This document shows positions 29,490-58,306 of a stretch of DNA of 64,000 nucleotides, in pieces (the stretch's first letter is position 1; every line of letters begins with the position of its first letter). The position numbers and the translations under genes were made by a program. Source of the stretch: Xanthomonas sp. (lineage in GTDB: Bacteria; Pseudomonadota; Gammaproteobacteria; Xanthomonadales; Xanthomonadaceae); the NCBI RefSeq assembly GCF_017163755.1, contig NZ_JAFIWC010000026.1, positions 1 to 64,000 of the forward strand, given 5' to 3'. A model generated the notes under the pieces. The model made no database searches, had not been told where the DNA came from, and was given only the letters and a program-made list of their open reading frames with translations.

Positions 29490-30941
29490 ATGCGAACGCG
29501 TGGACGATGGAGCGGGGGATGTGCCTGCGGATGGCTGCTGCTGCCGGCGCTGGCGCTGGCCGCGCCGGCCGCGAGCGATGCCGGCGCGGCCGAGAAACTC
29601 AGCCACGGCCGCTTCGAGCAGGTACCGGTCCTGCTGCCGCAGGGCGACGCCGAGCGGGTGGTGCTGTGGTTCGCCGGCGACAGCGGCGGCGACGCGGCGC
29701 GCCGGCGCCAGGTGGAGGCGCTGCGCCGCGACGGCGCGATGGTCGCGCTGATCGACAGCGCGCACCTGCAGCGCGTGCTCGCCGGCATCGACGGCAGCTG
29801 CGGTTTCTCCGCCGGCGACGTGGAGAATTTCTCGCGCTACGTGCAGGCCTACTATCACGTGCCGACCTACCACCTGCCGCTGCTTGCCGGCGACGGCGAC
29901 GGCGCGGCGCTGGCCTATGCGGTGGCCGCGCAGGCGCCCAGGCAGGTGCTCGCCGGGCTGCTGACCGAGGATTTCTGCCCGCAACAGCGGCTCGACGACC
30001 AGATCTGCGGCGCCGGCCTGGCGCCTGCGGCGCCGCCGCCGGACGCGGCAGCGCCGCCGCGCGCGGCCGCAGGCCCGGGGCTGGGCGGCGCGTTGCGGCC
30101 GGTGCCGCTGCCGATCCCGTGGCTCGCTGCGGCCGCCGCGAACCGGTCCGCGCGCTGCAGCGCGGATGCCGACGCGTTCGTGCGGCAGGTGCCGCAGGCG
30201 CGCGGTTTCCGCCGTGGCGCCGCCGGCGACCCGTTGCCGGGCCTGCGCGCGGCGGCGCGGTCGCTGGGGGCGCAGCCCGGGGTCAGCCTGCCGCCGACGC
30301 CGGCCGACCTGGCCGGGCTGCCGGTGGTCGAAGTGCCGGCCGCCGCCGGCGCCGATGCCCGTGGGCCGGTGTTCGCGATCTTCGTCTCCGGCGATGGCGG
30401 CTGGGCCGGCCTGGACCAGCAGGTGGCCGGCGCGCTGGCCAAGGCCGGGATTCCGGTGGTCGGCGTGGACTCGCTGCGCTACTTCTGGAGCGAACGCACG
30501 CCGCAGGGTTTCGCCGCCGACCTGGACCGCATCTATCGCCACTACAGCGGCCTGTGGCGCCGCGGGCGCGTGGTGCTGATCGGCTTTTCGCAGGGCGCCG
30601 ACGTGCTGCCGGCGGCCTACAACCAGCTGCCGCCGGCGATGCGCGCGCAGGTGCAGATGACCGCGCTGCTGTCGGTGGGCAAGCGCGCCGACTACGAGTT
30701 CCATGTCGCCAACTGGATCAGCGCCGACGACGACGGCCTGCCGATCGCGCCGGAAGTGGCGAAGATGCCCGGCGCGCGGACGCTGTGCCTGTACGGCAAG
30801 GACGACGACGACGCGCTGTGCCCGCAACTGCCGGCCGGCGCCGCGCAGGTGGTCGAACTGCCGGGCGACCACCACTTCGAGGGCGACTACGGGGAGTTGG
30901 CCAGGCAGATATTGCAGCGGATCGGGGCGAAGGGCGATTGA
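29490..30941 (+). CDS. virJ: AcvB/VirJ-family periplasmic lysyl-phosphatidylglycerol hydrolase-like protein
   Basis: The 483-residue exported protein has a signal peptide (CGWLLLPALALAAPA) and two alpha/beta-hydrolase-like halves. The C-terminal one has a GDGGWAGLDQQVA start, the nucleophile elbow IGFSQGADVLP, Asp in YGKDDDDALC and His in PGDHHFEGDY. In Agrobacterium the AcvB homologue hydrolyses lysyl-phosphatidylglycerol (established for that protein). Here it faces mprF, whose product makes that lipid, so the same role is likely. A repeat-rich gap separates the two convergent genes. Confidence 0.85.
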   Translation: MRTRGRWSGGCACGWLLLPALALAAPAASDAGAAEKLSHGRFEQVPVLLPQGDAERVVLWFAGDSGGDAARRRQVEALRRDGAMVALIDSAHLQRVLAGIDGSCGFSAGDVENFSRYVQAYYHVPTYHLPLLAGDGDGAALAYAVAAQAPRQVLAGLLTEDFCPQQRLDDQICGAGLAPAAPPPDAAAPPRAAAGPGLGGALRPVPLPIPWLAAAAANRSARCSADADAFVRQVPQARGFRRGAAGDPLPGLRAAARSLGAQPGVSLPPTPADLAGLPVVEVPAAAGADARGPVFAIFVSGDGGWAGLDQQVAGALAKAGIPVVGVDSLRYFWSERTPQGFAADLDRIYRHYSGLWRRGRVVLIGFSQGADVLPAAYNQLPPAMRAQVQMTALLSVGKRADYEFHVANWISADDDGLPIAPEVAKMPGARTLCLYGKDDDDALCPQLPAGAAQVVELPGDHHFEGDYGELARQILQRIGAKGD

Positions 30942-30943
30942 AG

Positions 30944-31051
30944 GCCGGGACCGGGGACCGGGGACCAGGGACCGGAAGAACCTATGTCGGTAAGGCCCCA
31001 AGCTTTTGCAGTTGCTTTCCGGGCCCCGGGTCCCCGGTCCCCGGTCCCGGC
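30944..31051. repeat. Inverted repeat of GGGACCG units between virJ and mprF
   Basis: The 23-base arm at 30944-30966 is an exact reverse complement of 31029-31051, with about 60 bases between. Each arm is built of repeated GGGACCG units, a variant of the GGGACTC heptad seen elsewhere in the window. It may fold as a bidirectional terminator for the two convergent genes, though no T-run is present. Confidence 0.8.
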
Positions 31052-31052
31052 T

Positions 31053-33617
31053 TCACTCCGGCTTCCTGGGATCCAGCGAAATCAACCGGGTCACGTCCAG
31101 CAGCGCCGCCGGCAGGTGCATGCCGCCGGGCGCGGCCAGGTAGCGGGTGCGCCAGACCGGGGCGAACTTGGACTTGAACCGGCGCAGGCCGCTGAAGCCG
31201 TAGAAGCGCTCGCCGTGGCGCACGATCAGGTTGCCGAAGCGGTTCCAGCGTCCGGCCAGGCGGTGCTGCGCCAGTCCCGACAGCGGCGCCATGCCCAGCG
31301 AGAAGCGCTGGTAGCCCTGGTCGCGGCCCCACAGGAACAGTTCGATGAACAGGAAATCCATCGTGCCCTTCGGCGCGTCGGCGGTGTGCCGCATCAGGTC
31401 CACCGACAGCTCGCGGCCGGCCGGCGCCTGCCACAGATTGGCGAAGGCCACGATCCTGCCCTCGGCCTCGACCACCGCGATCGGGAAGCGGCGCAGGTAG
31501 GCCGGGTCGAAGCTGCCCAGCGAGAAGCCCTTCTCGTCGCCGGATTTTTCTTCCAGCCATTGCTGCGACACGTCGGCCAGCGCCGGCATCAGCGCGTCGA
31601 TCTGCTCGGTCGGCACGATGCGGAAGCTCAGCCCGCCGCGCTTGCCACGGTTCCAGGCCTGGCGCAGGTCGGCGCGCTCGCGGCCCTCCAGGTGGAAGCC
31701 CTCCAGCGACACCAGTGCCTCCTCGCCCAGCTTGACCAGGGTCAGGCCCAGGTCGAGGTAGGTCTGCCAGTACTGTTCGCCGACCTGGTAGAACACCGGG
31801 CGCAGGCCCATGCGGTCGGCTTCCTCGCGGAAGCGCCAGATCAGCGCGCGCGCGGTGTCCGGCGCGCCCACCGGATCGCCCATCGCCACCAGCGAGCCGC
31901 CGTAGCGCTGCATCATCACGAAGCCGTGCCCGCCGTCGTCGCGCAGCAGCGCCTTGTCCCCGGTCAGCACCAGGCAGGCCTGGGTGTCGGCGGCCGCGGC
32001 CAGCACCGGCGCCAGCGCGTCCAGCTCGCCCGCGCTGGCCGGCGCCAGCGGCGAGCGGGTGCTGTGCAGCAACCGCGCCAGCCCGAACACCACCACCGCC
32101 ACGCTGACCAGCAGCACCGCGCGCAGCGCGCGCGGTGCATTGGCCGAGGTGGCGAACTGCCACCACAGCTCGTTCTGGTACTCGACGTGGCTGTAGACGA
32201 AGAACAGCAGCCACACCGTGGCGATCAGCACCAGGCCCAGGTTGCGCAGCCACGGCCACGACCACGCCTCGTCGAGCAGCGCGCCCTGGCGGTAGAACTC
32301 GCGGCGCGCGCCCCACAGGCCGGCCGCCACCACCAGCGAGGACAGCGCCACCAGCGCGTGCCCGCCGCGCAGCCACGCCGGCAGCGGCAGCAGCACGCAG
32401 ATGCCGATCGCCAGCATCCAGGCCGCGTGGCTGCGCCGCTGCAGGCCCTGGCCGATCAGCAGCAGCACCACGCCGCCGAGGCTGGCGAGCAGGTGCGAGG
32501 TTTCCACGATCGACAGCGGCGCCATGCCCAGGCGCCGCTTCGGCGTGGGCAGGGTGCCGTCGATCACCAGCGCCGCGCCGACCGCGAACACCGCCACCGC
32601 GATGATCTGCGGCAGCCACGGACGCAGCGTGCCCCAGGCCACGCGCACGCCGCCTGCGCCGGCCAGCAGCGGCCGGCGCAGGCCCGATGCCGCGGCCATC
32701 AGCGTGGACAGCAGCAGCGGCACCACGTAGTAGGTGACGCGGTAGATCAGCGCCGCCGCCAGCACCGCGGCCGGCGCCACGCCGGGCAGCAGCTTGAGCA
32801 GGCTCCACTCGAACACGCCCAGCCCGGCCGGCACCGTCGACACCAGCCCGGCCACCACCGCGACCAGGTACAGGCCGACGAAGCCGACGAACTCGATGCC
32901 CGATTCGTTCGGCAGCAGCACGTAGAACGCGGCGCTGGCCAGGCCCAGTTCGATCACGCTGAGCGCGGTCACGCCCAGCGCGGTGCGCCGGTCCGGCAGC
33001 CACAGCGCGTGGCCGCGCCAGCGCACGGTGCGTCCTTCGCGACCGGCCAGCGCCAGCATCGCCGCGAAGCCCGCCAGCAGCGCGATGCCCAGGGCCCGCA
33101 CGCCGGGCGCGGCGAGCGGCAGCGCTAATGCCGCCGACGCCGGTTCCAGCGCCAGCGCCAGCGCCAGCAGCAGCCAGGCGCCGAACACGAAGCCCAGCGT
33201 GCTCATCAGCACCACCTGGCCGATCTCGGCCAGGCTCAGCCCGACCCGGCCATAGCCACGCAGGCGCACCGCGCCGCCGGTGAGCGCAGCGAAGCCCAGG
33301 GTCTGGCCCACCGCGTGGGCCAGGAACGCGGTGATGCTGATGCGCGCCGGATGCAGCGTGCGCCCGCTGCGGCGCAGGCCGATCGCATCGAAACCGATCA
33401 GGCAGGCGTAGCTGCTCAAGCCCAGCAGCAGGGTCAGCGCGATCTGGCCGACACCGAGCTGGTTGAACGCATGCCGGATCGCCGAGTAGCCGTGGGTGCT
33501 GAATTCGGTGGCCAGCGCGCGCAGCGCCAGCGCCAGGATCAGCAGGCTGACGAGAACCGGCAGCGCGCGGCGCCAGCCGGGAGCGGACGGGGACGGGGAG
33601 GGTGCGGCGTCGGTCAT
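31053..33617 (-). CDS. mprF: Bifunctional lysylphosphatidylglycerol synthetase/flippase MprF
   Basis: The 854-residue protein has the full MprF layout: about 14 membrane helices (flippase, residues 15-510) and a C-terminal cytosolic GNAT-fold synthetase (FVMMQRYGGSLVAMGDPVGAP..., RKP end). The synthetase transfers Lys from Lys-tRNA to phosphatidylglycerol, and the flippase moves the product to the outer leaflet, lowering surface negative charge and increasing resistance to cationic peptides. The synthetase segment TDKALLRDDGGH..., LRPVFYQVGEQY and WNRFGNLIVRHGERFYGFSGLRRFK looks intact by eye. It is convergent with virJ. Confidence 0.93.
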   Translation of the reverse strand: MTDAAPSPSPSAPGWRRALPVLVSLLILALALRALATEFSTHGYSAIRHAFNQLGVGQIALTLLLGLSSYACLIGFDAIGLRRSGRTLHPARISITAFLAHAVGQTLGFAALTGGAVRLRGYGRVGLSLAEIGQVVLMSTLGFVFGAWLLLALALALEPASAALALPLAAPGVRALGIALLAGFAAMLALAGREGRTVRWRGHALWLPDRRTALGVTALSVIELGLASAAFYVLLPNESGIEFVGFVGLYLVAVVAGLVSTVPAGLGVFEWSLLKLLPGVAPAAVLAAALIYRVTYYVVPLLLSTLMAAASGLRRPLLAGAGGVRVAWGTLRPWLPQIIAVAVFAVGAALVIDGTLPTPKRRLGMAPLSIVETSHLLASLGGVVLLLIGQGLQRRSHAAWMLAIGICVLLPLPAWLRGGHALVALSSLVVAAGLWGARREFYRQGALLDEAWSWPWLRNLGLVLIATVWLLFFVYSHVEYQNELWWQFATSANAPRALRAVLLVSVAVVVFGLARLLHSTRSPLAPASAGELDALAPVLAAAADTQACLVLTGDKALLRDDGGHGFVMMQRYGGSLVAMGDPVGAPDTARALIWRFREEADRMGLRPVFYQVGEQYWQTYLDLGLTLVKLGEEALVSLEGFHLEGRERADLRQAWNRGKRGGLSFRIVPTEQIDALMPALADVSQQWLEEKSGDEKGFSLGSFDPAYLRRFPIAVVEAEGRIVAFANLWQAPAGRELSVDLMRHTADAPKGTMDFLFIELFLWGRDQGYQRFSLGMAPLSGLAQHRLAGRWNRFGNLIVRHGERFYGFSGLRRFKSKFAPVWRTRYLAAPGGMHLPAALLDVTRLISLDPRKPE

Positions 33618-33868
33618 TGCAGGGGAAGCTGGCTGGAGGATCGGAGCGCGCCGACGACGGCGGCTGCGCCGTGCCGGAGGCGCGGTGCGCGCGAGGAGGA
33701 CGCGGCGGCGCAGCGGCCATCGGCGGGGCGGAACAATAGCCGGGTCATCGGGATGGTCGTCGCCTTGGCTGTACCGGCGTCGCCGGCGAAGCGCATCATA
33801 GTGGAATCGGGCGCCGGCGCAGCGTCGGTCGGCGCCGGCCCAACCCCATGGAAGCGGAGGTCCCCCGC

Positions 33869-34920: not shown

Positions 34921-34929
34921 GGAGGAGCC

Positions 34930-35052
34930 GGGACTCGGGACTCGGGACTCGGGATTTTCGCAAGTTCGCCGCATTTGTGCTTTTCTGTAGGAGGGGCTTC
35001 AGCCCCGACGCTCTACCGGTAAGGCGTCGGGGCTGAAGCCCCTCCTACAGAA
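34930..35052. repeat. Heptad array plus REP hairpin cassette, copy 1
   Basis: Three copies of GGGACTC (34930-34950) are followed by an A/T-richer spacer (GATTTTCGCAAGTTCG) and then a 29-base perfect inverted repeat (34983-35011 with 35024-35052) around the 12-base loop TCTACCGGTAAG. The stem is built on TGTAGGAGGGGCTTCAGCC, typical xanthomonad REP. The same unit, with eight heptads and a 34-base stem, recurs at 38442-38604. Confidence 0.92.
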
Positions 35053-36324: not shown

Positions 36325-38391
36325 TCAACGCACCGGCATCCCCGGCTGCGCGCCGCTGTCGGCATCCAGCAGCGCCAGCGCGCCGCCATCGAAGCCGGCC
36401 GACAGGATCATGCCTTCGCTGATGCCGAAGCGCATCTTGCGCGGCGCCAGGTTGGCGATGAACACCACGTTGCGGCCGACCAGCGTCTCCGGCTCGCCGT
36501 AGCTGGCGCGGATGCCGGAGAAGATCTGCCGCTTGCCCAGCTCGCCGGCGTCCAGCTCGAAGCGCAGCAGCTTGTCCGAGCCTTCGACGAACGCGCAGGC
36601 CAGCACCTTGCCGATGCGCAGGTCCAGCTTGGCGAAGTCGTCGATGCCGACGAAGGCGGGACTCGGGACCCGGGACTCGGGACTCGTAACGGCGGCGGCT
36701 GCGGGTTTCGCTGCCGGGGCCTGAACGGCGGGCGCGGCGGCGAGGGTGTCCTTGGAGGCTTCGGTCATGGCGTCGATCAGCTTGGGGTCGATTCGGGTGA
36801 ACAGGGGAGCGTAGGGCTGGATGACGTGCGCCAGCAGCGGCGCGTCCAGGTCCTCCCACGCGGTCAGCGGCGCCGACAGGAAGGCCTCGGCCTCGGCGCT
36901 GGTGCGCGGCAGCACCGGCTTCAGCGCGCCGGCCAGCACTCGGAACAGGTTGAGCCCCTGCGTGCACACCGCCTGCAGCAGCGCGTCGGCGCCGTCCTGC
37001 TTGGCGATCACCCACGGCTTGTGCTCGTCGATGTACTTGTTGGCCTCGTCGGCCAGCGCCATGGTCTGGCGGATCGCGCTGGCCGCGTCGTTGCGCTCGT
37101 AGGCTTCGCGGACCGGCGCCAGCGCGGCGACGAAGCGCGCGTACTGCGCCGGGTCCGGCAGCGCGTCGGCCAGGCGGCCGCCGAAGCGCTTGTCGATGAA
37201 GCCGGCGCAGCGGCTGGCCAGGTTGACGAACTTGCCGACCAGGTCGGCGTTGACCCGCGCGACGAAGTCGCCAAGGTTCAGGTCCAGGTCGTCGACGCCG
37301 CCGGAGGACTTGGCCGCGAAGTAGTAGCGCAGCGCTTCCGGCTCCAGGCCTACGTCCAGGTAGGTACGCGCCATCACGAAGGTGCCGCGCGACTTGGACA
37401 TCTTGGCGCCATCGACCATCAGGTAGCCGTTGACGTGCAGCCGGGTCGGCGCGCGGTGGCCGGTGCCGTGCAGCACCGCCGGCCAGAACAGGCCGTGGAA
37501 GTTGACGATGTCCTTGCCGAGGAAGTGGTGCAGCTCGGTGGCGGTGCCGGCGGCCAAGTGCGACTCGAAGTCCTCGCCGATCTGCGCGCACAGCGCCTTG
37601 AAGCTGGACAGATAGCCGATCGGCGCATCCAGCCACACGTAGAAGTACTTGCCCGGCTGGCCCGGGATCTGGAAGCCGAAGTAGGGCGCGTCGCGCGAGA
37701 TGTCCCACGCGCGCAGGCCGCCTTCGGCGTCCAGCCATTCCTTGAGCTTGGCCTTGACCCCCGGCAGCGCCACGTCGCCGGCTAGCCATTGGCGCAGGAA
37801 GTCGTCGAAATGGCTCACCTCGAAGAAGAAGTGCTCCGAGTCGCGCAGTTCCGGCGTGGCGCCGGAGATCACCGACTTGGGCTCCTTCAGCTCGGTCGGC
37901 GCGTAGGTGGCGCCGCAGACCTCGCAGTTGTCGCCGTACTGGTCGGCGCTGCCGCAGTTGGGGCAGATGCCCTTGATGTAGCGATCGGGCAGGAACATGC
38001 CCTTGGCCGGATCGTAGAACTGCGCCACCGAGCGCCGCGAGATGTGCCCGGCCGCATCGAGCCGTGCGTAGAAGGCCTCGGTGAGTTCACGATTGCCCGG
38101 CGAGTTGGTCGAGTCGTAGTGGTCGAAGGTCACCCCGAACGCGGCGAAGTCGCGCTCGTGGCTGGCCTGGACGTTGGCGATGAAGTTCTCCGGGGTGACC
38201 CCGGCCTTCTCCGCGGCGAGCATGATCGGCGTGCCGTGGGTGTCGTCGGCGCAGACGAACCAGGTCCTGTCGCCGCGCAGCCGCCGCGCGCGCACCCAGA
38301 TGTCGGCCTGGATGTAGCCGACCAGATGGCCCAGGTGCAGCGGGCCATTGGCGTAGGGCAGGGCGGTGGTGACGAGAGCGGTGCGGGTCAT
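36325..38391 (-). CDS. metG: Methionyl-tRNA synthetase with C-terminal tRNA-binding domain
   Basis: The 688-residue enzyme charges initiator and elongator tRNA-Met. It has the class I signature HLGH at residues 19-22, a zinc knuckle (CPNCGSADQYGDNCEVCG) near residue 145, KMSKS near residue 335 and the anticodon-binding helices. At about residues 569-577 a linker (SPESRVPSPA) encoded by heptad repeats joins the catalytic body to the C-terminal Trbp111 domain (DDFAKLDLRIGKVL...). Length fits a dimeric E. coli-type enzyme. Confidence 0.96.
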   Translation of the reverse strand: MTRTALVTTALPYANGPLHLGHLVGYIQADIWVRARRLRGDRTWFVCADDTHGTPIMLAAEKAGVTPENFIANVQASHERDFAAFGVTFDHYDSTNSPGNRELTEAFYARLDAAGHISRRSVAQFYDPAKGMFLPDRYIKGICPNCGSADQYGDNCEVCGATYAPTELKEPKSVISGATPELRDSEHFFFEVSHFDDFLRQWLAGDVALPGVKAKLKEWLDAEGGLRAWDISRDAPYFGFQIPGQPGKYFYVWLDAPIGYLSSFKALCAQIGEDFESHLAAGTATELHHFLGKDIVNFHGLFWPAVLHGTGHRAPTRLHVNGYLMVDGAKMSKSRGTFVMARTYLDVGLEPEALRYYFAAKSSGGVDDLDLNLGDFVARVNADLVGKFVNLASRCAGFIDKRFGGRLADALPDPAQYARFVAALAPVREAYERNDAASAIRQTMALADEANKYIDEHKPWVIAKQDGADALLQAVCTQGLNLFRVLAGALKPVLPRTSAEAEAFLSAPLTAWEDLDAPLLAHVIQPYAPLFTRIDPKLIDAMTEASKDTLAAAPAVQAPAAKPAAAAVTSPESRVPSPAFVGIDDFAKLDLRIGKVLACAFVEGSDKLLRFELDAGELGKRQIFSGIRASYGEPETLVGRNVVFIANLAPRKMRFGISEGMILSAGFDGGALALLDADSGAQPGMPVR
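36658..36685 (+). repeat. Four GGGACTC heptads inside the metG coding sequence
   Basis: Units at 36658, 36665 (GGGACCC variant), 36672 and 36679 lie in frame within metG and encode SPESRVPSP on the minus strand. The same peptide arises from the reverse heptads at nadD. Confidence 0.9.
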
Positions 38392-38441
38392 GGCGAACGG
38401 CGATGCAGGGGGATCGCGATTATCGCATTAGTCGTGAAGCC

Positions 38442-38604
38442 GGGACTCGGGACTCGGGACTCGGGACTCGGGACTCGGGACTCGGGACTCGGGACTCGGG
38501 ATTTTCGCAAGTTCGCTGCATTTGCGCTTTTCTGTAGGAGGGGCTTCAGCCCCGACGCTCTACCGGTAGGGCGTCGGGGCTGAAGCCCCTCCTACAGAAA
38601 AGCG
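38442..38604. repeat. Heptad array plus REP hairpin cassette, copy 2
   Basis: Eight perfect GGGACTC heptads (38442-38497) are followed by GATTTTCGCAAGTTCGCTG and then a 34-base perfect inverted repeat (38525-38558 with 38571-38604) around TCTACCGGTAGG. Order and sequence match copy 1 at 34930 almost base for base apart from array length and a few substitutions, so the array and hairpin move or spread as one unit. Confidence 0.93.
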
Positions 38605-56438: not shown

Positions 56439-57473
56439 ATGGAATTGCGCCCCGAACAGCTCGTCACCCAGGCGGCCTCGCAGCCGCTGCACCCGGTCTA
56501 CCTGATCGCCGGCCCGGAAACCCTGCGCGTGCTCGAGGCCGCCGACGCGGTGCGGGCGCGCGCGCGCGCCGAAGGCATCGGCGAGCGCGAGGTGTTCGAC
56601 GCCGACGGCCGCGACTTCGACTGGAGCCAGCTGTATTCCAGCTTCAACGCGCCGAGCCTGTTCAGTCCGCGCCGCCTGCTCGAACTGCGCCTGCCCAGCG
56701 GCAAGCCGGGCAAGGAGGGCGCCGAGGTGATCGGCGCGTTCTGCGCCGATCCGCCGCCGGACGTGGTGCTGCTGATCACCTGCAACGAATGGAGCAAGGC
56801 GCACCAGGGCAAATGGGCCGACGCGGTCGGGCGGCTGGGGGTGATCGCGGTGGCCTGGGCGATCAAGCCGCACGAACTGGGCGACTGGATCGAGCGCCGC
56901 CTGCGCAGCAAGGGCCTGCGCGCCGACGCCGGCGCGGTGCAGCGCCTGGCCGAGCGCGTGGAGGGCAACCTGCTCGCCGCCGCGCAGGAGATCGACAAGC
57001 TGGCCCTGCTGGCCGACGGCCAGAGCCTGGACGTGGCGGCGATGGAGTCGCTGGTCGCCGACGCGGCGCGCTACGACGTGTTCCGCCTGGCCGAGTGCAC
57101 GCTCGCCGGGCAGGCGCCGGCGGTCGGCCGCATGCTGCTCGGATTGCGCGCCGAAGGCGAGGCCGTCGCGGCGCTGATGCCGATCCTGATCAAGGAACTG
57201 CTGCGCACCGCGGCGCTGGCCAAGGTGCAGGCCGCCGGCGGCAACCTGGCCGCGGAGATGAAGGGGCAGGGCATCTGGGAATCGCGGCAGGCGCCGTTCA
57301 AGCGCGCGCTGCAGCGGCATGCCGAGCCGCGCCGCTGGGAGCGCTTCGTCGCCGAGGCCGGGCGCATCGACCGCATCGCCAAGGGCCGCGCCGACGGCGA
57401 CGCCTGGGTCGCGCTGGAGCGGCTGCTGCTGGCGATCGCCGAGGCGCGCGCAGTGCGGTTGTTGGTGGTATGA
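56439..57473 (+). CDS. holA: DNA polymerase III subunit delta
   Basis: The 344-residue protein has the HolA pattern (PVYLIAGPETLRVLEAADAVRARARAEG, FNAPSLFSPRRLLELRLPSGKPGK, LAERVEGNLLAAAQEIDKLALLADG). It opens the beta clamp during loading. Its stop overlaps the ATG of the nadD reading frame (ATGA). Confidence 0.95.
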   Translation: MELRPEQLVTQAASQPLHPVYLIAGPETLRVLEAADAVRARARAEGIGEREVFDADGRDFDWSQLYSSFNAPSLFSPRRLLELRLPSGKPGKEGAEVIGAFCADPPPDVVLLITCNEWSKAHQGKWADAVGRLGVIAVAWAIKPHELGDWIERRLRSKGLRADAGAVQRLAERVEGNLLAAAQEIDKLALLADGQSLDVAAMESLVADAARYDVFRLAECTLAGQAPAVGRMLLGLRAEGEAVAALMPILIKELLRTAALAKVQAAGGNLAAEMKGQGIWESRQAPFKRALQRHAEPRRWERFVAEAGRIDRIAKGRADGDAWVALERLLLAIAEARAVRLLVV

Positions 57474-58306
57474 CGAACGGGACTCGGGACTCGGGACTCG
57501 GGACTCGGAACAGCGAGATTCCAGCGGGTGCGGGCAGTGGAGGCAGTACCGGTTCCCGACCCGCCGAACAGTCTCTGGAACCCGCGTTGTCGCAGGTATC
57601 GGGATTTTCCGAATCCCGAGTCCCGAGTCCCGAGTCCCGACAACTCCACCTGATCTACGGCGGCACCTTCGATCCGGTCCACAACGGCCACCTGGCGATC
57701 GCGCGTGCGGCGCGCGACGAGCTCGGGGTCCCGGTGCGGCTGATGCCGGCGGCCGATCCGCCGCACCGGGCCGCGCCCGGCGCCAATGCGCGCCAGCGCT
57801 GCCGGATGCTGGCGCTGGCGATCGGCGAGGAGCCGGGCCTGCTGCTCGACGGCCACGAACTGCGCCGCGCGCTGGCGCAGCCGGGCGTGGCCTCGTACAG
57901 CATCGACACCGTGCGCGAACTGCGCGCCGAACTCGGCGCCACGGCGCCGCTGGCATTGCTGGTGGGCTCGGACAGCTTCGTCGGCTTCAGCGGCTGGCGC
58001 GAATGGCGCGCGTTGCTGGACGCCGCGCACGTGGTGATCGCCGATCGCGCCGGCAGCGGCTGGGAGCGGGCCTTGCCGGAGGAACTGGCGGCGGCCGCCG
58101 CCGGCCGCTGGGCGGCGTCGCCGCAGGCGCTGCAGGCGGCGCCGGGCGGCCTGCTGTGGCGCCTGCGGCAGCCGCTGCGCGCCGAATCGGCGAGCCTGGT
58201 GCGCGAGCGCATCGGCAACGGCGGCGACTGGGAAAGCCTGCTGCCGCCCGCCGTGGCGCAGTACATCCGCGCCGCCGGGCTGTACGCGCCCCCCGCCGCC
58301 GGCTAG
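57470..58306 (+). CDS. nadD: Nicotinate-nucleotide adenylyltransferase with repeat-encoded N-terminus
   Basis: The 278-residue enzyme adenylates NaMN to NaAD in NAD biosynthesis. The signature GGTFDPVHNGH starts at residue 64; family members have it near residue 9. Residues 1-58 are encoded by heptad arrays at 57479-57506 and 57611-57638 plus the stretch between. The only ATG before the catalytic motif is at 57470, overlapping the holA stop; a TTG at about 57587 is an alternative that would still leave repeat-derived residues at the N-terminus. The remaining enzyme (SYSIDTVRELRAELG, LVGSDSFVGFSGWREW) looks normal. Confidence 0.9.
   Translation: MTNGTRDSGLGTRNSEIPAGAGSGGSTGSRPAEQSLEPALSQVSGFSESRVPSPESRQLHLIYGGTFDPVHNGHLAIARAARDELGVPVRLMPAADPPHRAAPGANARQRCRMLALAIGEEPGLLLDGHELRRALAQPGVASYSIDTVRELRAELGATAPLALLVGSDSFVGFSGWREWRALLDAAHVVIADRAGSGWERALPEELAAAAAGRWAASPQALQAAPGGLLWRLRQPLRAESASLVRERIGNGGDWESLLPPAVAQYIRAAGLYAPPAAG
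57479..57638. repeat. Inverted heptad pair within the 5' end of nadD
   Basis: Four GGGACTC units (57479-57506) and four reverse units (GAATCCC, then three GAGTCCC; 57611-57638) flank about 105 bases and could form a 28-bp stem. In the nadD frame they encode GTRDSGLGTRNSE and SESRVPSPESR. The GGGATTTTC just before the reverse array also occurs after the arrays at 34950 and 38497. Confidence 0.9.

Follow-up and report, generated by a model that had tools for sequence, protein, structure and literature searches.

The nadD gene of this Xanthomonas genome raises the question of where its protein begins. In the window, meaning here the whole 64,000-nucleotide stretch of contig NZ_JAFIWC010000026.1 (assembly GCF_017163755.1) that was analysed, the gene order is holA, nadD and then rsfS. 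The nadD open reading frame begins within the stop codon of holA and crosses two inverted arrays of a 7-base repeat, together with the DNA between them, before it arrives at recognizable NadD sequence (Table 1). The reading that we consider highly probable is that NadD throughout the genus is translated from the ATG overlapping the holA stop and through the inverted arrays, or through their decayed remains, which would give the enzyme a disordered tail of approximately 34–59 residues.

Table 1. Features of the window referred to in the text, in window coordinates.
Feature	Position	Strand	Basis
Non-coding control: array pair between the convergent stop codons of genes 29490-30941 and 31053-33617	30942..31052	.	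genome comparison
Heptad array inside metG (gene 36325-38391, minus strand)	36657..36686	+	in the linker before the tRNA-binding domain (C-terminal); reads SPESRVPSP
holA (DNA polymerase III delta), 5' neighbour of nadD	56439..57473	+	NCBIfam TIGR01128, 224.5 bits, cutoff 80
ATGA stop-start overlap: holA TGA 57471-57473, nadD ATG 57470-57472	57470..57473	+	in 20/20 genus genomes
Left heptad array, GGGACTC; GTRDSGL-type peptide	57478..57508	+	TRF: CGGGACT, 4.4 copies, 100% match
Inter-array linker (100 bases), inside the open frame; in-frame TTG at 57587	57509..57608	+	sequence and frame reading
Right heptad array, inverted (+ strand GAGTCCC); PESRVPS-type peptide in nadD	57609..57640	-	TRF: CCGAGTC, 4.6 copies, 96% match
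nadD frame with extension, 278 aa plus stop (stop 58304-58306)	57470..58306	+	open frame; NCBIfam/Pfam
Native NadD body from LHLIYGGTFDP; GGTFDP at 57659-57676	57644..58303	+	best NCBIfam/Pfam matches begin at residues 56 and 62; AlphaFold confidence sets in around residue 60

The product of the extended frame is identified as NadD by the curated NCBIfam equivalog NF000839 (256.3 bits, cutoff 187), with the match beginning at residue 56; its catalytic activity is predicted. The GGTFDP motif begins at residue 64 and is preceded by the native residues LHLIY. The first-pass annotation had stated that this motif usually lies near residue 9, which agrees with the GGTFDP-type motif of E. coli NadD (1k4k), and it had correctly read a frame that crosses the period-7 repeats without a stop from a sole upstream ATG overlapping the holA stop codon. 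Its assignment of residues 1–58 to two inverted GGGACTC arrays and their linker stands as far as the arrays are concerned, which TRF and the positions bear out, but not to the residue, as neither the N-terminal MTN nor the Q before LHLIY is an array unit and LHLIY is native. From the holA stop to GGTFDP, the in-frame ATG, GTG or TTG codons are limited to the overlapping ATG, 63 codons before the GG of the motif, and the TTG within the linker, 24 codons before it.

The arrays belong to a dispersed GGG-type heptad family of xanthomonads. A search of the window with (GGGACTC)2 allowing up to two mismatches identified 29 matches against 0.48 expected, a density that is not due to chance since 0 of 100 shuffles reach it. 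In the genome of the window, (GGGACTC)3 with two mismatches allowed gave 302 forward and 295 reverse matches and the control gave 0, and close inverted pairs are present among the array places listed. Rehm et al. 2015 (PMC4692102) described heptads of GGGAATC/GGGANTN type, frequently in inverted pairs, in Xanthomonas campestris and X. citri, and defined them as at least 14 bp of GGGANTN units including at least one GGGAATC. The nadD arrays (4.4 and 4.6 units of GGGACTC, with one GGGATTC-type variant) exceed this length and are likewise part of a dispersed, high-copy set with inverted pairs; GGGAATC itself is absent from the window's nadD and is carried at that place by several relatives. The unit at nadD differs by species and may be GGGACTC, GGGACGC, GGGATTS, GGGAATC, GGGACCC or GGGGACC. 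GGGACGC is commonest in G019 (12 matches, two at nadD itself), whose nadD carries this unit, and GGGGACC is commonest in G004, G000 and G017, being found at nadD in G004 and G017. GGGACTC is commonest in G000, which carries it at nadD, and next in G017, which does not. That the nadD unit tracks the prevalent unit of its genome is suggestive only. The number of array-pattern matches per genome is 6 in G001, 2 in G013 and 239–524 in the other 18 genomes of the genus. G014 also gave 215 forward matches to the reversed control pattern, compared with 0–7 in the other 19 genomes, and may hold a large array of another type.

Many of the readable array edges begin a few bases behind a stop codon (TGA or TAG, often followed by AGGCC and then GGGA), and at the control spacer many arrays start directly behind stop codons, several as TGAAGGCCGGGA. 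One array of the window, at approximately 38434, is preceded by a TGAAGCC edge with no gene seen to end there, so the TGA may belong to the element rather than mark stop codons. At 34929–35052 and 38441–38602 a common stretch (GGGATTTTCGCAAGTTCGC...) and a palindrome (TGTAGGAGGGGCTTCAGCCCCGAC...) lie behind the arrays, which gives the impression of a composite element made of an array and a REP-like palindrome. Two of the five array sites in the window are coding, namely nadD and metG.

Comparison with the nadD arrays of related strains reveals that the extension is special neither to this strain nor to this gene. The family search found NadD in 194 of 198 genomes of the family. The genus sample consists of 20 genomes and includes X. 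bonasiae FX4, X. sp. F10 and X. sp. GPE 39; outside the genus, 79 of the 185 NadD-matching genomes were parsed, the other 106 being mostly lower-scoring. Junction parsing covers 119 of 121 loci (L179 and L214 left out), and 20 of 80 named loci were parsed, three of which are copies of genus genomes and several others identical to genome (G) rows. Every one of the 20 genus genomes shows a start codon overlapping the holA stop and an open frame, and the ATG-to-GGTFDP distance, which takes ten different values between 117 and 192 nt, is always divisible by three. The presence of this arrangement in all 20 genomes, 14 of which comprise one or two contigs, rules out an assembly artefact. The extensions contain 0 stops in the coding frame and 14 and 11 in the other two. 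The array-poor genomes G001 and G013 have degenerate arrays at nadD and still keep an in-frame extension. In a second genus (g17), the eight genomes drawn are all in frame from a GTGA overlap over distances of 144–261 nt, with 0 stops in the coding frame and 0 and 7 in the others, and their heptad units appear to resemble those of the X. campestris clade. The single genome of a third genus (g2) likewise has an in-frame extension. Across the three genera the start lies 37 to 87 codons before GG; the extended proteins often begin with M or V, one residue and AG, and L-x-L follows behind the arrays.

Little can be concluded here from an open frame by itself. The tested xanthomonad units are stop-free in all six frames, and chance could supply such units, as half of all heptads are free of stops (8264 of 16384, and 204 of 256 for GGGNNNN). 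Because stop-free units are this common, the case rests on the length argument and on the linker stops in the other frames. The non-coding array pair between two convergent genes, which is of the same repeat family, serves as the control for length. Heptad units are visible at this spacer in 18 of the 20 genomes, the long spacers having been inspected in part, and its length (54–624 nt, with the stop codon of one flanking gene varying among some genomes) leaves 0, 1 or 2 bases modulo three in 5, 7 and 8 genomes, so that 5 of 20 are in frame. The difference between 20 of 20 at nadD and 5 of 20 at the control has a Fisher p of 7.7e-7, a value computed over related genomes that are not independent and in which the independent length changes number fewer than 20.

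The same plan recurs at xerC. In G000 (L026, contig C6, ATG at 33656, minus strand; L258–L277 across the genomes) an ATGA overlap is followed by an array, a linker, an inverted array and the protein body, and the product matches the NCBIfam XerC equivalog from residue 39 of the extended frame (364 bits, cutoff 335). The frame from the overlap is kept in 18 of 20 genomes, made up of 13 of 15 and the remaining 5. G010 and G014, the two others, have lost the frame over this distance, and each carries an ATG four codons before the body; G010 has an ATG and a TTG further up as well. Judged from these sequences, a kept frame or, failing that, an ATG close to the body is what would be expected if it matters that translation begins at the overlap. 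Units are also found inside metG in 18 of the 20 genus genomes as judged by eye, the two array-poor genomes being without them, and in valS of G000 (L003 1501–1528, contig C1), where an array between the tRNA-synt_1 and Anticodon_1 domains reads NTRDSGLGTRDSARL in this one genome. Since these units are internal to their genes, they would be translated whichever start codon is chosen. Of 13 array loci from the genome of the window, taken in the order of the contigs, at least two lie within genes by Pfam (valS and xerC, the names confirmed by NCBIfam); 10 covering frames were run through Pfam, so this count is a minimum. Taken together, the frame kept in relatives, the control spacer, xerC, the metG and valS units and the open frame of the array-poor genomes make it very probable that the tail is translated, and the initial suggestion of an enzyme that has accepted a repeat-derived, translated N-terminus holds up against the 20 genus frames, the eight of the second genus, the control and the xerC pattern.

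The arrays might instead form an untranslated leader, with NadD starting further down at the linker TTG or at a non-standard CTG beside the body. The first-pass annotation had named both codons as alternative starts, and the TTG is indeed in frame; G019 also has a TTG 24 codons before GG, a start codon lies 5–11 codons before GG (in-frame ATG, GTG or TTG) at 76 of the 87 other parsed junctions, and a strong predicted hairpin sits directly behind the overlap ATG. Neither codon is conserved, however: several relatives have CTC or TTG where the CTG at 57650 stands. In 18 of the 20 genus genomes a further in-frame ATG, GTG or TTG lies in the extension or in the native L-x-L, so that a shorter product is possible in any single genome, but none of these starts is common to all. 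G011 and G007 have no in-frame start except the overlap ATG, and six of the eight g17 genomes have only the GTG. The codon before the native L-x-L is never ATG, GTG or TTG in the 29 extended rows; it is ATG in some Pseudoxanthomonas outgroups. A leader would moreover let the frame drift, yet it is kept in 20 of 20 genus genomes and in the eight g17 genomes drawn, and where xerC has lost its frame an ATG is seen beside the body. A leader therefore seems improbable, and the overlap codon is the start that we infer to be in use.

A role of the element as DNA or RNA structure in the holA-nadD message, as a hairpin or G-quadruplex with coding incidental, is unlikely, although the predicted fold is considerable. 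The extension hairpin of the window, which starts 8 nt behind the A of the ATG, has a predicted energy of -107 kcal/mol, the fold z-score against mononucleotide shuffles is -5 or lower in 17 of the 20 genus genomes, and G-quadruplex formation has been reported for related GGGAATC oligonucleotides (PMC4692102). The two arms also remain complementary although their units differ between species: over the 18 array-bearing genus genomes, with kinship ignored, own arms score 26.25 on average and swapped arms 17.14, and none of 10000 shuffles reaches the own-arm value; the own partner arm ranks first of 30 in only 6 of 18 genomes. Such covariation is also expected from slippage and template switching, and little or no hairpin is predicted for G013 (z -0.6) and for six of the eight g17 genomes (z between -1.4 and +1.9), and a reduced one for G014 (-2.7) and G001 (-3.8), while the frame stays open in all of them. 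As the frame outlives the hairpin, the arm matching is read as slippage or template switching rather than selection on RNA, and the hairpin is weakened as a conserved feature. A selected function of the tail as protein, in partner binding, stability or localisation, is equally doubtful. It would account for a tail kept in 29 of 29 genomes of three genera, for the recurring x-A-G opening and the S-G or S-E after the left array, and for pN/pS below 1 in 20 of 20 pairs (0.13–0.92 over non-independent, closely similar pairs whose extensions share more than 85% identity with no more than 12 gap columns). The recurring motifs may stem from the array DNA, however, the start-to-GG distance and the sequence are highly variable, and similar sequence is translated in xerC, metG and valS, which suggests tolerance rather than a role specific to NadD. 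The tail is predicted to be disordered, with AlphaFold (alignment of 32 sequences) giving pLDDT below 50 for residues 1–46 and 48–55. By comparison of the sequences it evolves fast, and length changes among close extension pairs come in threes or are compensated. It is best read as a tolerated passenger.

The preferred reading of a translated tail suggests the following mechanism. Arrays would arise behind stop codons, and at ATGA or GTGA junctions that place corresponds to codon 2 onward of the next gene; the overlap of stop and start, combined with the position of arrays behind the stop, would thus put them inside the downstream gene. Lengths that break the frame would be removed or rescued by a new start, and the remaining arrays would persist as disordered tails in an essentially neutral manner. 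Their survival would follow from units that are stop-free in six frames, from the terminal position of the tail and from selection on frame-preserving lengths. Initiation would probably occur by termination-reinitiation of ribosomes finishing holA; this is proposed because of the very stable hairpin predicted so close behind the ATG, a structure that could hinder initiation at the overlap codon. More tentatively, and with more doubt than belief on our part, the heptad arrays may constitute a standing process that writes N-termini at ATGA and GTGA overlaps, in which copying between the arms alters both halves of the peptide together; nadD and xerC would then be two members of a class spread over the genome.

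The order of events at the junction is compatible with more than one route. Some Pseudoxanthomonas junctions have an ATG directly before CTCCAC, and G061 has an ATGA overlap followed by an array-free start reading MKAGPELHLYYGGTFDP. Loss of a start at the body and insertion behind an existing start would both fit these sites. The G061 site may be an empty site or a deletion product, the latter because the TGAAGGCCGG edge is retained. A tree of 114 rows, from which L076–L078 (copies) and L092 and L093 (short) were excluded, does not separate the deep forks that would distinguish one origin from several. L185 (G138, genus g28), which stands apart in this tree, has a GTGA frame running through GGGAATC-like units and three other starts; it is not counted here and its extension is possibly of independent origin. 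Also not counted is L059 (G080, Pseudoxanthomonas-like), where the spacer has an array pair, the overlap offers an in-frame TTG, and an ATG lies six codons ahead of GG. In other Lysobacteraceae (L060, L080, L086/L187 and L091/L171/L208) the holA-nadD spacer contains inverted repeats of different sequence, and the nadD start may lie further downstream; palindromic elements seem to accumulate at this junction. L046 (G006) and the loci L041, L042, L043, L044, L047 and L049 have near-identical HolA and NadD bodies with quite different extension types, so the extension segment may be exchanged or rewritten.

Palindromic DNA read in frame as peptide is known from housekeeping genes, as in the Rickettsia palindromic elements (RPEs) and the protein-coding palindromes of Wolbachia and Methanocaldococcus (PMC10969869, PMC2996958). 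The xanthomonad arrays resemble RPEs in description and layout: selfish-looking palindromic DNA lies in frame inside unrelated genes (inverted pairs in nadD and xerC, single arrays in metG and valS). They differ in size and constancy. RPEs measure approximately 150 bp and fall into ten families, the peptide being conserved within each (PMC10969869, PMC2996958), whereas here the arms are built of 7-base units, the extension spans 117–192 nt from start to GG in the genus, and unit, copy number and peptide vary by species. PARCEL elements are likewise coding repeats with dyad symmetry that spread in genomes, but they encode 25-residue amphipathic domains associated with membrane proteins rather than short disordered tails (PMC2996958). 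The TAACTGA heptads of marine Beggiatoaceae lie at gene ends, some of them in frames, and have been argued to be tolerated at protein peripheries (PMC4679880); that unit contains stops in forward sense, unlike the stop-free units tested here. The heptads of Rehm et al. 2015 are likewise dispersed, G-rich, found in inverted pairs and near stop codons on the sense strand, with most downstream repeats within 50 bp of a stop codon; the unit of the present arrays, GGGACTC, is different (PMC4692102). Those repeats were treated as mainly intergenic, 7–11% of them overlapping genes in two genomes (PMC4692102). The main text of that paper does not mention nadD, holA or metG, and its examined sections do not describe translation through the pairs or conservation of frame. 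Among the open-licence papers listed, judged by title and abstract opening, none deals with nadD extensions or translated Xanthomonas heptads. Translated palindromic repeats are thus already known, and the difference here is an unstable pair of heptad arrays with a unit-dependent peptide in at least two genes of a genus.

For the genus, these observations mean that repeats of a family described as mainly intergenic are very probably translated as part of core genes genus-wide, with the frame kept despite heavy change in length. The nadD and xerC junctions of these genomes offer natural replicates for the passage from non-coding repeat to protein, for translation coupling past a strong hairpin and for shifts of start codon, as in xerC of G010 and G014. 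Gene callers may choose wrong starts at array-bearing overlap sites.
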